Assembly: GCA_937872225.1 (NCBI GenBank)
Contig: CALMRZ010000027.1
Coordinates: 1-48,857, forward strand
Length of the DNA stretch: 48,857 bases
Direction: 5' to 3'
Source: an uncultured Spirochaetota bacterium
GTDB lineage: Bacteria; Spirochaetota; UBA4802; UBA5550
Shown: in pieces, positions 9,295 through 48,857 of the stretch
How the letters are laid out: each line of letters begins with the position of its first letter
Position numbering within the stretch: the first letter of the stretch is position 1
Translations under genes and position numbers: made by a program
Notes under the pieces: model-generated
What the model was told of the DNA's origin: nothing
What the model saw: the letters and a program-made list of their open reading frames with translations, nothing else
Databases searched by the model: none

Positions 9295-12200
9295 ATGATT
9301 AAAAGAAAACCGGGAATATTACTGATAATTCTTCTTTCATCATTATTCTTTGTTCAGTGCGCGAGGAACAGCCTCGAAACAAATTCCACTGATGCAACAT
9401 CCCTATTCGGCATGGGCTTTTTGTTCGCCACGTCGCCGATAACTATCCAGGCCGGAGGTCTGGATTACCGGACCAACGGCACCTATAATTTCGGCACCGT
9501 CACCACGGGGTCCACGGGCCAGCTGATAACCTTTTCCATTCAGAATACCGGGAATGAAAACATATTATTCCCGAGCCCTCCCGTTGCGGTCGGCGGAGAT
9601 AATGCCGCCGATTTCACCGTCACGGACCCCGGCATCACGAACCTGGCGCCCGGGGCAACCGCAACCTTTACGGTCATTTTTACCCCCGGCGGTGATGGCC
9701 CCCGCAATGGCGTTATCACCATTATGAACAGTGATAATGAAGTAATTTACACCCTGAACCTGACCGGTACCGGGTCAGCGACTCCTGTTCCGGACATCTA
9801 TCTTGAGACCGGCGGAACGTATTACGCGTCCGGGAGCGGCTATGATTTCGGCTCCGTTTCGTTGGGATTTTCCTCATCTGTGATAACCTTCACCATTGGG
9901 AACTCGGGGCAGTCGTCCCTTGCACTCACCGGTTCGCCCACCGTGGCGACGGGAGGCGCTGACGCGTCTGATTTTACCGTAAGCGGCCCTGCCGGAACAG
10001 CCATCGCGGCAGGCGCGACCGACACCTTTACCGTGACCTTCACGCCTTCCTCCCTTGGCCAGTGCAGAGCGACCATTACTGTCCAGTCGGACGACCCGGA
10101 CATCGGGACCTATACCATAAATCTCACCGGCACCGGTATAGCGCTTCCGACCATCTCGCCGGTTACGATTGCGTCGAACAACGCAAACACATCCTTCGCG
10201 CGGCCGGGCGATACGGTAACGCTGTCATTCACGGCGGACGTGGCGATCCAGACGCCGACCGTGACCATTGCCGGCAACGCGGCAGCGGTCACGGGAGGCC
10301 CGACGTCGTGGACCGCGACCTACACCATGACCGCGGTTGACGCGGAAGGCACCGTGCCGTTCGTCATATCCAATATCATGAACCTTGCCGGGGCCCCCGT
10401 TGCGGACGTTACCGCCACGACCGACGGGTCAGGCGTGACCTTTGATCGAACCGTTCCCGCTGGCTATACGGCAGCCATTGACCAGGCGATGATAAATACC
10501 GCCAACCAGGCCGCATGCTCCTTCACTTTTAACGGTGCGGAAATCGGCACGACCTATGATTTCACGATAACGAGCAGCGGCGGCGGGACAGCCGTTACCG
10601 GCAGCGGCACGGTCGCCGCGGCCGGGGAAACGATTACCGGCATCGATGTTTCCGGCCTCGGTGATGGCACCCTGACCCTGAGCGTCACCCTGACCGACGC
10701 GGCCGGGAACGCGGGAGCGGCGGCGACCGACACGGTGGCGAAAGACGCAGCCGTCCCATCTGGCTATAACGTTAGCATCGATCAGCCATATATCAACAAC
10801 GGCAATGTGGGGGCCTTCTCCTTTACGTTCGCCGGCGCCGAAGTGGGCGCAACCTATAACTACACGATCTCCAGCTCCGGCGGCGGCACGAATGCCACCG
10901 GCAGCGGTACGGTCGCCGCAATCAATGAGACTATTACAGGAATTAACGTCTCCGGCCCGAATGACGGCACCCTGACCCTGAGCGTCACCCTGACCGACGC
11001 GGCCGGGAACGCGGGAGCGGCGGCGACCGACACGGTGGCGAAAGACGCAGCCGTCCCATCTGGCTATAACGTTAGCATCGATCAGCCATATATCAACAAC
11101 GGCAATGTGGGGGCCTTCTCCTTTACGTTCGCCGGCGCCGAAGTGGGCGCAACCTATAACTATACGATATCCAGCTCCGGGGGCGGCACGAACGCCACCG
11201 GCAGCGGCATGGTCACTTTAGCCAATGAGATTATTACCGGGATAAACGTCTCCGGTCCGAATGACGGCACCCTGACGTTGAGCGTCACCCTGACAGATAC
11301 GGGCGGCAATACCGGAATAGCGGCGACGGACACGGTGGTGAAAGATGTAGTCGTGCCGACGGTATCTTTTACATCGACCCCGGCCATCACCGCGGCAAAC
11401 GCATCAAGTTATAACGTAACCGGGACCTGTTCGGACAGCGGGCGGATGGTTATTGTGAGCATCAACGGAACTCCGAACGTGGGACCGCCCTGCCTGGGCG
11501 GGACATTCAGCGCCACGGCCATGGACGTCAGCGGCGAGCCTGACGGTACGGTGGTCGTAACGGCCGACCACAGCGATGAAGCGGGAAATAACGCTGTCCA
11601 GGCCTCTTCCTCGGTTTCGAAAGACGCGTTGCCGCCCTCGGGATATAGCGTGAGCATCGACCAGGCCGCGATCAACAGCGGCAACGTGGCGGCGTTCTCG
11701 TTTACGTTCGCCGGCGCCGAGGTTGGCGCAACCTATAACTATACGATCTCCAGCTCCGGCGGCGGTACGAACGCCACCGGCAGCGGCACGGTAACCGCGG
11801 CCAATGAGAACATTTCGGGTATCAATGTTTCCGGTCCGAACGACGGAACCCTCACATTGAGCGTCACCTTGACCGACACGGGCGGGAACACCGGAATAGC
11901 GGCGACAGACACGGTGGCGAAAGACGCGGCCGCGCCATCCGGTTATTTCGTGAGCTTTGGGCCGTCAGCTGTCAATAGCCTGAATGTGTCCAATATCTCC
12001 TTCGCATTCACCGGCGCCGAAGTGGGCGCAACCTATAACTACACGATTTCCAGCTCCGGCGGGGGCACGAACGCCACCGGCAGCGGCACAGTTACTTTAG
12101 CCAATGAGGTCATTACCGGGATAAATGCCTCCGGGCCAAACGACGGCACCCTGACGTTGAGCGTGACTCTGACGGATACAGCCGGTAACGCGGGAACAGC

Positions 12201-15200
12201 TGCGACCGATACGGTGGATAAGGACGTGGTCGCACCGGCAGGTTATTCAGTATTCATTAATCCGGCATATATCAACAGCGGCAACGTGGCCGGATTCTCT
12301 TTTACCTTCACCGGCGCCGAAACAGGCACTATCTGCAATTACACGATTTCCAGCTCCGGCGGCGGAACCAACGCCACGGGCAGCGTCGGGATCATCGACG
12401 CCAATCAGACCATTTCAGGCATCGATGTCTCCGGTCCGAGCGACGGCACCCTGACATTGAGCGTTGTCCTGATGGATTCGCTCGGCAACACGGGGTCTGC
12501 CGCGACCGACACGGTAGCGAAAGACGTGATTGCGCCGACGGTGGCCATCGGCGCGCCTTCACCGGCTGTAATTAATAATTCCGGCAGCGTGGACTTCGGC
12601 ATAACCTATGCCGGTGCGGATTCGGTAAGCCTGGGCGGTGGGGATGTTACCCTAACGACGACCTCTGGCACCGCATCATGCTCCACGGTCAACGTCACCT
12701 TTGGCACTACACCGAATCCAAAGGTAAAGATTTCCGGCTGCGTCGGCAATGGCACGATAAACATTACCATTGCCGCGGGCCGGTCATCCGACCTGGCGGG
12801 AAACACTGACCTCGGGGCGGGCCCCAGCACCGATTTCACGGTGGACAACCTGAACCCGTCGTTATCCTTCAATTCAGTGCCGCCGATAAACGCGGCGAAC
12901 GCGGGTGCCTATGTGGTATCCGGCTTCTGTACCGAGGAGGGAAGGGCGGTGAACGTCACCGTCGGCGGATCGGTCTCCAATTCGCCGGTCTGCACCGGTG
13001 GCATGTACACGACCGATGACATGGATGTAAGCGGCATTTCAGATGGCGGCTCTGTAAGCGTGGCCGCAAACCATAGCGACGGAGCCGGCAACACGGAAAA
13101 TATCTCCACCAATGTGGTGAAGGACACGGTGATACCGACCCTGACGATGTCCCCCGTGCCGGGTACTATAACCTATGCGAACCAGAATGCCTATGCCGTG
13201 TCGGGAGTATGCTCCGAGGAAGGGCAAATGGTCACTGTCACGGTAATCGATGATGAAAGCTCGTCGGTCTCCCAGGGGCCGATCTGCTCCAGCGGGTGGT
13301 ACACCACGACCCTTGATGTAAGCGGACTATCGGATGGAGTTGGAAGATTGACGATAACACATACTGACGGTGCGGGAAATACCAGTCAGACCGGAATCGA
13401 TCCCCTGGCCAAGGACACCGCATATCCGGCAATGAATGTACGCATCAATGGCACAAGCCAGCCGACCAGCAGTATGTATAGCTTCGGGACCGTTGAGACC
13501 GGGACCACCAAGGCTGTCACAGTGGATATTTACAATACGGGCACCGGTACCCTGATTCTCCCGATATCGCCGGTAGCCTTCACCGGAGCAAACTTTAATG
13601 AATTCACAACGGCCGATCTTGAGTCCGGGGCGATATCGATCAATCCGGGCGACATGGCCACGTTCATTCTGAATTTCACCCCCACGGATGTTGTGAATCC
13701 CAGGGACGCATTAATGTCGATAACGTCAAACGATCCGAATACCCCCGTATATACTATCACGCTCCAGGGCAACGGTTCTGCCTCGAACACGCCAGATATC
13801 AATGTAAAGGTCAATGGCCTTAGCCTAAATCCCGGAGGCGAATTTGATTTCGGCACGGTCAGCACGGGGACCACCAAGACCGCCAGGGTGGATGTGTATA
13901 ATAATGGATCGGCAAACCTGACCCTTCCCAATGCGGGGCCGATCTGGCTCACCGGCGTCAATCCGAGCGAATTCCTTGTAAACGGCGCCATTAAGGGACC
14001 GATAACTATCCCGGCGGGCGGCAGCTTCTCGTTCATGGCATCTTTCGCGCCTACACAGGCGCTCGTCAGGTCAGCGCAGCTTGTTATAACCTCCGACGAT
14101 CCGGACGTGGGGTCATTTGTCGTCACCCTTCTCGGCACGGGCACTGCCGCCACGACGCAGGACATCAGCCTGAAGATCAATAACCTGGAAGTGGCGAATA
14201 CCGGCACCTTTGATTTCGGGCAGGTGCTGACGACCCTCTCCAAGACCGTGGCGGTGGAAATCGCCAACAAGGGTACTGCGGACCTGACTCTTTCATCTTC
14301 TGGAGGTCCGGTTTATCTCACCGGCACCAATTTCCCGGATTGGGAACACCTGACCGGGGCGCCCGGCCTCGGAACGGTCATAGCTGCCGGGACGTCCGTC
14401 ACCTTTACCATGGATTTTATTCCCCCTGTGGACGGGCTCCGTTTCGCACAGCTGAGGGTCCTTTCCGACGATCCGGATACCGGGACTTATGTGGTCAACC
14501 TGAAGGGGTCCGGGAGCCTGGCACCGGTGCCGGATATAGACATAGAACTTGACGGCCTGCCATACTCGTCGGCGAGCACCTTTAATTTCGGCGCTGAACT
14601 TGTTGATACGCCCATATCAGTGAATGTTGATATTTTTAATGGCGGTTCGGATATCCTGAACATTTCCGGCGGGACCGTGGTCAGCATAAGCGGCCCCGAC
14701 TCTGCTGATTTTGCTGTTATCGGCAGTGGCGCCTGGCCGGCGCCCGAGTCGGTGCCGGCCGGCAGCTCCCTGGTTATCAGCAGCGGCACAGGATCCACCG
14801 TGGAATTTACTCCATCCGGTCCCGGCGTCCGCAGGGCCCAGATGACCGTTGTTTCCGACGATCCGGACACGGGGACCTATGTCGTGAACCTCCATGGCAT
14901 CGGCGTGATGCCGCGGGTGATGGTTTGCGGCGGCGGCACAAGCGATACGGCGATCTATAACCCGATGACGGGCGTCTTCTCTGCGGGCAACCCCACCGGT
15001 GGGCTGACAGTCAATGCCGGCGGCCACAGCTTCAAGATGCAGGACGGGTCGAATCGGCACGTGCTCATTTACGGCGCTAATCCGCAATGGGCCATTTTTG
15101 ACCCGACGTCTAAAACATTCACGACTCAATCCAGCTTTGGAACGAATGCCAATCCAGGCGCCAACAGCTTCCCGGTCATTGGCGGAAATTATGACAAAAA

Positions 15201-29028: not shown

Positions 29029-29091
29029 CCGATAACTGTCCATCGGTATTAATTTCGGGGTCAGAGTAAAACAAGAACCGATAACAATCGG
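29029..29091. repeat. Degenerate copies of the CCGATA palindrome
   Basis: CCGATAACTGTCCATCGG (29029-29046) and CCGATAACAATCGG (29078-29091) share CCGATA...ATCGG with the 21-bp tandem array at 48758-48857. The second can fold as a 5-bp stem with a four-base loop. Confidence 0.5.
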
Positions 29092-46463: not shown

Positions 46464-47987
46464 ATGAACTCGCATGCATTCAGGACGATAGTTATCGGTA
46501 TGATGGCGGCGCTGTCCCTGCTGGTATCCGCCTGTGATGAACTGAACACGGGACTGGTGAAGAGGGGGTACAGTTTTCTGGTAAACTTTCATTTGAGATG
46601 GACACACCCTGAAAACCTCGGTGCGGATATGGTTGATTTTAATGAAAGCGGTATTTCAGGAGCCGCAGATCCCCGGGTTGCGATGGATGGACACGGTAAT
46701 GCTGTCATAGTATGGCGCCAAAAACCGGACGGTGAAACGTATCACATCTATAAAAGCGAGTTTCGCAACAACGCCTGGATCAATCCGGCTGATAAGGATG
46801 ACCATCTGAATTATTCCGGAGATTTGTATGGTGATGTCAAAAAGCCGGCAGTTGCGATGAGCAATGATGGGACCGCCATAGTATCCTGGTTGCAGGAATA
46901 TCGGGATGAAGTCATGATGCCGTTTGAGCAAAGCGCCTGGGTGTATCAATATGGAAATGGGATATGGAATTTCCTTTCGCCAAATCCAAGAGTATCGTAT
47001 AACCTTTCTGAGCATCTATCAGTAGATATGAACGATCTCGGAGTTGCAGAAGTGATAACAACCATGTATTATTCAGCGACTATATACCAGGTCTGGGTAT
47101 CAGAAATTACAAATGGAATTAACAATTACAATAAACCATTAAGCAGTGGTGCAACAGATTCAACCAACCCTGACGTGGCAGTGAATAATAGTGGTTCTGT
47201 ACTGGTTGCATGGGAGCAGGATTCAAGAATATATATGAACATGAAAACAGGATCCGTGTGGAGTGGAGATGAAACAGGCACTCCTATCGGTCTAACCGGT
47301 GCTGAAGTTTACACAGCAATCAAGCCAAAAGTGGCGATCAGCGATAATGGTACAGCCGTTATAGTGTGGACTCAGCAATTCAATACTGTAGGATTTCCCA
47401 CCCATGTTTATCGAAGCTACTATAACGGCACATCATGGAGCCATCCGGCGGCAATGATTGATTCTGTTGATCCGATGGATCCGGGAGATCCTCACCTGTA
47501 CTGGGCTGACTCTGCCGACGTTGCCATGGATGGTTCCGGCAACGCGATCATGGTATGGCGTATGCAGCGACCCGACGGCGAAGTCCATCTGCAGATGAGC
47601 CAGTGCAGCAATGGTGTGTGGTCAGTTATTCCATACAGCGAGGTCGCGTCGCATTTCGATCCAGATGGAGGTGTGGCCAATGAACCTGATGTGGCCATGG
47701 ACAGTTCCAGTAATGCTGTCATAGTTTGGGACCAGTATGACGGCGCGGCATATAATCATATATATAAAAGTGAATACCGTAACGGCCGATGGACCCATCC
47801 CGCCAGTCTTGATGATAACATTGACTCTGAAAGTCCCGCGGAAAGGTCGGGGTTTACACCTCAGGTGGCAACGAATCCAGGCGGTGAAACCATTATTGTA
47901 TGGGACCAGTTTCTTGATATGTCAAATCGTCACATCTACAAAAGCGAATGCCGTCCCTACCGGGAGATACTGCCGTTGTTGTATTAA
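46464..47987 (+). CDS. Repeat lipoprotein (propeller-like), AT-rich
   Basis: 507 residues. GGGAG precedes ATG 46464. Signal with Cys24 in LLVSAC. The mature part has six or more repeats close to PRVAMDGHGNAVIVWRQ ... HIYKSEFRNNAW, a pattern of about 60-70 residues that suggests a beta propeller of six or seven blades. Third-position GC is lower than in the neighbours, so it may be a recent arrival. Similar repeat proteins are common on the surface of spirochaetes; function unknown. 14 bases after the fibronectin/barrel gene. Confidence 0.85.
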   Translation: MNSHAFRTIVIGMMAALSLLVSACDELNTGLVKRGYSFLVNFHLRWTHPENLGADMVDFNESGISGAADPRVAMDGHGNAVIVWRQKPDGETYHIYKSEFRNNAWINPADKDDHLNYSGDLYGDVKKPAVAMSNDGTAIVSWLQEYRDEVMMPFEQSAWVYQYGNGIWNFLSPNPRVSYNLSEHLSVDMNDLGVAEVITTMYYSATIYQVWVSEITNGINNYNKPLSSGATDSTNPDVAVNNSGSVLVAWEQDSRIYMNMKTGSVWSGDETGTPIGLTGAEVYTAIKPKVAISDNGTAVIVWTQQFNTVGFPTHVYRSYYNGTSWSHPAAMIDSVDPMDPGDPHLYWADSADVAMDGSGNAIMVWRMQRPDGEVHLQMSQCSNGVWSVIPYSEVASHFDPDGGVANEPDVAMDSSSNAVIVWDQYDGAAYNHIYKSEYRNGRWTHPASLDDNIDSESPAERSGFTPQVATNPGGETIIVWDQFLDMSNRHIYKSECRPYREILPLLY

Positions 47988-48002: not shown

Positions 48003-48623
48003 TTAGTCCTTCACGCACCGCACCGACAGGCTGTTGCTCTTCGCGAAGAGGGACCGCTCCGCGTAAGTCTCGTCATACCTTAATACGCGGGCATAGGCGT
48101 CCTGGCTCCCTTCCGCGGTGGAAGTCCAGAAATAGGCCAGCTCGCCGAGAAAGTGGTATGAATTGTCGTAGAAGAGACAGGCGCCGCCGGGGAAGGCGTT
48201 GAAGCCGCTCTCGTTGTTGCCGTTTCCGTTTTCGTACCAGCCGGTCGCCGATTTAAGCTTCATGCCCAGCCCCTCGGCCCTTTTCCTATTTTTATCGAAT
48301 TCATCGGGGCTCATGCCAAGGTTCAGCTCCAGTGTCTTCCACTCCGCGTCTGCGGGGAGGTGCCATCCCTTCGGGCACGCCTCCTGCGCTGCGGCCCAGT
48401 CGTAAAGGTAGCCGTATTTTTCAACGTTCTTCATGTCGTCGCCCCAGGCCCTGATGCCCGATTTTGCCTTGTACGCGAGGTTCTTCGCCATCCATATCTG
48501 GCTCCCGATCTTCACCGTGGGATATTCCTTTCCGTCGCGGCTGTCTTTCAGGATGCCCTGTTCCTGCGTTAAGGCCACAAGGCAAAAGAGGGTAATTATT
48601 GAGGCGATAACTATCTTTTTCAT
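48003..48623 (-). CDS. FISUMP-domain exported protein
   Basis: 206 residues with AGGAGG before ATG 48623. Signal peptide MKKIVIASIITLFCLVALTQEQ. The rest is one Fibrobacter succinogenes major paralogous (FISUMP) domain: DGKEYPTVKIGSQIWMAKNL, YGYLYDWAAAQEACPKGWHL PADAEW, FNAFPGGACL, FWTSTAEGSQDAYARVL and SVRCVKD with paired Cys. These domains occur in extracellular proteins of many lineages. No further function can be said. Lies tail to tail with 46464. Confidence 0.93.
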   Translation of the reverse strand: MKKIVIASIITLFCLVALTQEQGILKDSRDGKEYPTVKIGSQIWMAKNLAYKAKSGIRAWGDDMKNVEKYGYLYDWAAAQEACPKGWHLPADAEWKTLELNLGMSPDEFDKNRKRAEGLGMKLKSATGWYENGNGNNESGFNAFPGGACLFYDNSYHFLGELAYFWTSTAEGSQDAYARVLRYDETYAERSLFAKSNSLSVRCVKD

Positions 48624-48757: not shown

Positions 48758-48857
48758 GCCGATAGTTATCGGTGTCAGGCCGATAGTTATCGGTAGCAGG
48801 CCGATAGTTATCGGTGGCAGGCTGATAGTTATCGGTAGCAGGCCGATAGTTATCGGT
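48758..48857. repeat. 21-bp tandem array of the palindrome CCGATAGTTATCGG, reaching the edge
   Basis: Four complete 21-bp units (48758, 48779, 48800, 48821) and part of a fifth (48842-48857), differing at one or two positions. Each has CCGATA-GT-TATCGG (one unit CTGATA). No spacers, so not CRISPR. The array continues outside the window. Confidence 0.9.

Follow-up and report, generated by a model that had tools for sequence, protein, structure and literature searches.

The stretch of DNA considered here (the window, all 48,857 nucleotides of a contig from an uncultured Spirochaetota bacterium) ends in a tandem array of short palindromes, which raises the question of what these palindromes are and what, if anything, recognises them. 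Dispersed palindromes in bacteria are usually classed as transposon litter of the REP type, whereas here the sequence points to a protein partner. The reading favoured below, at a probability of about 0.57, is that the palindrome (P) is a double-stranded operator of about 16 bp which has spread within the genus and would be bound by members of a small protein family, the family's own genes being among its targets.

The array at the window edge and its relatives

The preliminary description had reported palindromes repeating at exactly 21 bp, and the unit positions bear this out: five units start at 48759, 48780, 48801, 48822 and 48843, four of them exact copies of CCGATAGTTATCGG and one, CTGATAGTTATCGG, with a single mismatch, separated by the spacers TGTCAGG, TAGCAGG, TGGCAGG and TAGCAGG. 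Tandem Repeats Finder returned a period of 21 with 4.8 copies, 92% matches and a score of 172, the array being interrupted by the end of contig C27 (48857 bp), where the last unit lies. Over the window, 26 sites match P with three mismatches or fewer, compared with 4.2 ± 2.1 in shuffled sequence. A three-unit array in a sister genome (G004, L188:10845-10900) is syntenic with that of the window, with different spacers, and lies beside homologues of the neighbouring genes and a 31-residue fragment of a FISUMP protein; no orthologue of the gene following this second array was found in the window's own genome, in a search run without a positive control. The FISUMP-domain reading frame of the window (Table 1) is a neighbour of the array only, and no functional link is implied. 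No gene of the candidate protein family discussed below was found in the window. Repeats with a 300-bp period occupy positions 10597-12526, within a reading frame of 2224 aa.

Table 1. Positions of the palindrome P, the motif Q and a neighbouring reading frame in the window.
Feature	Position	Strand	Basis
Tandem array of five P units with a period of 21 bp (CCGATAGTTATCGG + 7-bp spacer)	48759..48857	+	repeat finding; syntenic array in G004
Decayed P copy CCGATAACTGTCCATCGG	29029..29046	-	G004 orthologue still CCGATAACTATCG
Q motif GGGGTCAGAGTA	29057..29068	+	fits the TIRYT terminal-repeat motif GGGGWSAS, as given in parts of PMC6006769 and PMC3733652
P variant CCGATAACAATCGG (= CCGATTGTTATCGG), adjoining Q	29078..29091	-	sequence match
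FISUMP-domain ORF, array on its upstream side	48003..48623	-	PF09603 E 1.3e-38; TIGR02145 E 5.4e-49

The two relatives of P in the interior of the window had been described as lone. Both are real, and they sit between an NlpC/P60-like reading frame and coaD (products named by eye), but they are far from alone: the exact 14-mer CCGATAGTTATCGG has 47 copies in the genome, compared with 0 for a reversed control, and CCGATANNTATCGG with at most one mismatch has 162 sites, compared with 3. The orthologous nlpC-coaD gap carries a P cluster in this genome (G000) and in G004, in differing forms, and none in G001, G002, G003 and G005, while a TTGACA-type coaD promoter is retained in all six genomes of the genus. 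Gain or loss of P at this locus leaves the promoter untouched.

Exact P was found in 18 of 59 genomes (the window's own and 58 relatives), including all six of the genus, where it numbers 5 to 129 copies each, the highest figure being that of G004 with array units counted singly. In the window's genome 34 of the 47 copies are intergenic. Location data cover about 0.74 Mb of this genome, the window included, and about 1.45 Mb from three sister species. Densities of exact P per 100 kb of intergenic and genic DNA are 25 and 2.1 in G000, 44 and 1.1 in G003 and 30 and 1.5 in G001, for stretches mostly picked for holding P, and 11 and 0 in G004, for blocks that were not so picked, as some filler contigs also were not. 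Genes were called by codon usage, which misses AT-rich genes, so that some of the 'intergenic' P are in-gene sites of the protein family described below; the caller also put a spurious reading frame over the window array, and the P sites of the window were entered by hand. Within 50 bp past stop codons, clusters of P reach their highest density (0.84 per kb), and in the 50 bp ahead of start codons they are scarce (0.22 per kb). On one 965-kb contig (G004:C1) no exact P occurs among the first 100 of 129 matches, listed in contig order, and only 1 of 45 exact copies of Q, and both motifs seem to avoid about a megabase of sequence.

P-like 14-mers also arise by chance where DNA codes for (P)IVIG or IVIA. 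Two such sites lie in the window (46485-46498, one mismatch, ...TIVIG...; 48604-48617, three mismatches, ...KIVIA...), and the start of carB, which codes for GSGPIVIG in many phyla, even imitates a 21-bp pair of P. Exact copies in other genera that were read by eye as PIVIG coding (e.g. L018, L019, L030 and L032) were set aside. Among 21 stretches of other genomes with P pairs at 21 or 22 bp, 18 are the carB start (GSGPIVIGQA coding, by eye), two belong to Spirochaetes bacterium Zod_Metabat.30, a contig of which holds the same array as G003:C24, and the last is an isolated pair in a gammaproteobacterial genome; no P pairs were found in viral contigs. No published counterpart of P or of its pairing with a protein was found in the literature on RAYT/REPIN, RHH proteins and Spirochaetota repeats at the level of titles and listings, nor do the letters of P appear among the matches listed for papers matching the P and Q sequences.

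Spacing and variation of the palindrome

Distances between adjacent copies of P, with one count per cluster in four genomes, gather at 21-22 bp (19), 41-45 bp (19), 61-65 bp (12) and 82-84 bp (6); distances of 52-56 bp make up a minor group (6), and others fall in between. For neighbouring copies without Q between them (n=63) the best period is 10.4 bp (R 0.60, p 2e-4), and when the 21/22-bp arrays are removed (n=39) it is 10.2 bp (R 0.55, p 8e-4). The null for both scans was a jitter of ±21 bp, again with one count per cluster, and the test cannot separate 10.4 from 21 bp, that is, one helical turn from two. In the sister genome G005, whose distances were unused in finding the pattern, they are 41, 41, 41, 41, 48, 19, 85, 101 and 103 bp. 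Pairs are in direct orientation in 113 of 132 cases. The P-P spacings thus lend support to protein bound along one helix face, as had been proposed from the window array. Of eight arrays, three have copies of P that are 81-100% identical and spacers that are only 33-57% identical, and five have similar spacers as well (81-94%), as expected from tandem duplication. The arrays of G004 include some of 8, 15 and 16 units, which differ in their spacers.

Variation within the palindrome is lopsided. At 249 sites around the inner core GATNGTTATC, 164 retain both the left CC and the right GG, 58 are altered on the left side only, 7 on the right only (65 one-sided in all) and 20 on both; among these both-sided changes, Watson-Crick compensation is seen at 5 of the 249 sites, or 7 with G-T wobble. 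The profile of P is accordingly directional, with GAT(A/T)GTTATCGGTA strong and the leading CC weaker. In the flanks of 148 P sites the only preferences are a T (85%) and an A (60%), on one side, and no GTAG or CGTC tag was found at the foot of the palindrome. The helical phase, together with the rarity of compensated changes, suggests a protein site on double-stranded DNA in preference to a hairpin.

A small protein family as candidate partner

Several copies of P fall within the reading frames of one family of small proteins of about 150 aa. For two members, Pfam and NCBIfam gave nothing at E 0.001, but a ribbon-helix-helix (RHH) fold is likely, if weakly shown, from more distant comparisons. 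A 17-member profile matched CopG (1b01, E 0.0098) and MazE7 (E 0.011) among PDB chains; RHH_5, RHH_1 or CopG_antitoxin was the Pfam match in 6 of 8 members, all below cut-off; and phrog_876, annotated as a transcriptional repressor, was matched by 6 of 17 members, at best with E 3.8e-5 over residues 2-116, which takes in both halves of the protein. When aligned with each other by hhalign, these halves stay in register over 37 columns (E 4.9e-5, probability 68%), and a search of the PDB with the second half alone found no RHH chain. The family probably carries two RHH halves per chain.

The family was found in 23 of 59 genomes, at 1 to 45 copies each. Of the 18 genomes with exact P, all but one (17) have it, as do 6 of the 41 others (p 6e-9), an association that is partly circular, P lying often inside a family gene outside the genus; those 6 others carry the family without any exact P. 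Co-occurrence of P with Y1_Tnp transposases is weaker (p 0.04). Outside the genus, a family gene is present at 11 of the 23 P loci examined, or at 10 of 21 distinct places. A tblastn search with one member (E 1e-3) found no relatives among 72,556 records of plasmids or 50,697 of phages, and PADLOC gave scattered weak matches only.

In family f7 (G025, G029, G034, G041; L015-L017, L031, L033, L234, L243, L256, L257) the RHH gene reaches up to 45 copies per genome. Where f7 paralogue pairs were compared, homology stops within about 26 bp of the gene, with identities of up to 95%, and the gene appears to behave as if it were mobile on its own, bare of flanking DNA. A recurring stretch resembling TTCGTATA(T/C), seen by eye 40-60 bp upstream of many tandem-RHH starts in several genomes (L229-L258), is possibly the promoter of family genes. 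In L231 and L253 (G004 and G003) a gene resembling umuC and Y-family polymerases (VDCNNFYVSCERVF, by eye) lies directly downstream of the RHH gene.

The relation between P and these genes is most visible at a short stretch coding for DNY, where most of the genes carry P in frame. In the 22 members first seen, many of them found through P, the DNY codons are almost fixed while other codons vary. A set less biased towards P consists of 30 loci from a protein search, or 18 when 12 genes of the query alignment are removed. DNY occurs in 29 of the 30, as GAT AAC TAT in 26 of the 29 (expected 0.155), and a preceding Thr is ACC in 21 of 23 cases. Among the 18, DNY occurs in 17 and is GAT AAC TAT in 16 of these (expected 0.14, p 3e-13, in a test that ignores kinship among members); the preceding Thr is ACC in 12 of 14 cases (0.20 elsewhere), the base ahead of the preceding codon is T in 12 of 17, and members share a median of 29% pairwise identity. 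The 11-mer CCGATAACTAT is present in 23 of the 30 loci and 13 of the 18 outside the query alignment, and missing from 7 and 5 respectively. The residue before DNY may be Thr, Pro or Ala, yet the DNA letters CC are kept. Given the fixed synonymous codons and the CC retained across three residues, it is the DNA at this site, and not the protein alone, that looks conserved, with its strong end as in the intergenic sites. Exact P lies upstream of the family start in 3 of the 30 loci (L236 at 77 bp, L246 at 116 bp and L255 at 109 bp), of which only L255 is independent, the genes of L236 and L246 having entered through P searches. In G021 (L026:1482-1533), a long and perfect inverted repeat has an exact P at its middle, some 120 bp ahead of a family gene.

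Binding of P by the family would be the simplest way to account for the fixed codons, for the shape and phasing of the site and for the probable RHH nature of the protein. P would then be read as TACCGATAACTATCGG on its stronger strand, and each member of the multi-copy family, with two RHH halves, would act as a built-in pseudo-dimer, from which the pseudo-palindromic form of P, strong at one end and weak at the other, would follow. With sites spaced by two helical turns (21-22 bp, or multiples of this), bound proteins would lie on the same face of the DNA, and arrays such as that of the window would allow cooperative loading. With P near the 3' end of most family genes and in front of a few, the family may control itself, and in the genus P would have spread to many gene-free spots, with copies arising, disappearing and multiplying in tandem, frequently alongside a transposase-linked motif, Q. 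Binding might affect transcription or chromosome structure. A classical promoter operator fits less well, in that P clusters shun the 100 bp before start codons, and binding leaves unexplained a preferred distance of 20-24 bp between P and Q; nor do P-Q distances share the 21-bp period. The preliminary description had held that occurrence in unrelated intergenic gaps would make the unit a plain repeat; P is indeed widespread in such gaps, but a plain repeat is not the best reading, because one would not expect it to show phased spacing, one-sided variation without compensation, or codons fixed in probable RHH genes.

A wider version of the same idea is offered tentatively, as a possibility for which the odds are against. 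The family would be self-addressed throughout the order, most copies carrying their own operator within the coding sequence and paralogues restraining each other, and in one genus the operator would have seeded helically phased extragenic arrays throughout the genome, coated by the protein, as a lineage-specific nucleoid or silencing system.

Other explanations and known systems

P might instead be a passenger similar to REP or TIR sequences, moved together with Q by Y1 transposases (RAYT/TIRYT), with 21 bp reflecting module size and slippage; this we consider unlikely, although several observations agree with it. Many P clusters contain Q, GGGGTCAGAGYAA, which fits GGGGWSAS, described in parts of PMC6006769 and PMC3733652 as the terminal-repeat (TIR) motif of TIRYT transposons, and Q (with at most two mismatches) lies by three of five Y1_Tnp loci of the window's genome and by Y1_Tnp in several other genera. 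Intergenic gaps hold both motifs in 39 cases, P only in 40, Q only in 22 and neither in 736 (odds ratio 33). Centre distances between P and Q favour the 20-24 bp mentioned above and are non-uniform, with a best period of 11.8 bp (p 2e-4); a 21-bp period was not seen in them (R 0.20, p 0.14), periodicity of Q-Q distances was not significant (p 0.40), and G003 has P-Q-P-Q units of 42-43 bp. The presence of the nlpC-coaD cluster in two species and its absence from four, the REP-like preference for gene 3' ends and the similar spacers of five arrays would also suit a passenger. However, exact P was found in none of nine Y1_Tnp loci of the genus examined (of 26 matches in six genomes), on which ground RAYT/REP was rejected as a direct explanation of P; near-matches there comprise one- and two-mismatch sites in L049 and a two-mismatch site in L052. 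A passenger of this kind is also at odds with the missing GTAG/CGTC tag and the rarity of compensated changes, with the lack of a significant strand bias by GC skew (70 and 64 clusters, p 0.67; at skew >0.02, 64 and 47, p 0.13), and with a phase that persists between copies outside the 21/22-bp arrays, and it leaves the fixed codons in RHH genes unexplained. The C-terminal HTH that marks TIRYT transposases was not found in the 4 proteins scanned, for which Pfam at E 0.001 gave Y1_Tnp only.

A second, less probable alternative accepts that P is a protein site and assigns it to another DNA-binding protein, for example a nucleoid protein, with the RHH genes as just one target. The spacing and variation of P name no protein, and P is densest near gene 3' ends, as are the REPs of E. 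coli, which are bound by gyrase and IHF. Such a binder would have to be reconciled with the presence of the RHH family in 17 of 18 P genomes and with a site that is fixed within those genes in several of the order's families. A hairpin in RNA or DNA, acting as a terminator or RNA processing signal in genes and between them, is highly improbable: CCGAT-NGTT-ATCGG could fold and P clusters peak after stop codons, but the changes in the palindrome are one-sided and mostly uncompensated, the spacing is phased, and Rfam at gathering score matched two tRNAs in the window and nothing else. That the array is an iteron origin or a centromere or partition site, as the preliminary description had also suggested and as its 21-bp direct repeats, a layout shared by iterons and ParR-type centromeres, might imply, can be practically dismissed, given that one genome (G004) has arrays at several loci, of 3 to 16 units and with differing neighbours, the dispersal of P and its concentration past stop codons, a family member without plasmid or phage relatives in the tblastn search, and no replication or partition genes apparent beside eight arrays whose neighbours were read by eye.

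Known systems resemble P to different degrees. With the TIRtron/TIRYT group (Y1_Tnp subclass 2.1, as outlined in parts of PMC3733652 and PMC6006769) the likeness is that of Q, which fits the terminal motif, adjoins Y1_Tnp and is dispersed in clusters, while exact P itself is absent from the transposase genes examined. P resembles REP, BIME and REPIN sequences and their RAYTs in being intergenic, multi-copy, palindromic, clustered and biased to gene 3' ends, and differs from them in its helical phasing, its seldom compensated changes, its lack of a GTAG or CGTC tag and its absence from the RAYT genes examined. Plasmid-origin iterons share direct repeats about 21-22 bp apart, whereas P is dispersed over the chromosome, and no link to a replication initiator was noticed.

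RHH repressors such as CopG, Arc, MetJ and ParR combine a small protein, a palindromic or pseudo-palindromic site and a regular spacing of two turns. The same combination is suggested here by a small, probable RHH protein, the (pseudo)palindrome P and a two-turn spacing indicative of cooperative loading, and P is found within most genes of the family, or in front of a few, much as in those systems. In contrast to them, there are two RHH-like halves per chain and 1 to 45 paralogues per genome, and the site is both fixed inside most of the genes and scattered over dozens of gene-free spots. If the favoured reading is correct, an operator in synonymous positions of a gene, followed by phased spread over the genome, would be an unusual way for autoregulation to give rise to a protein array spanning the chromosome.
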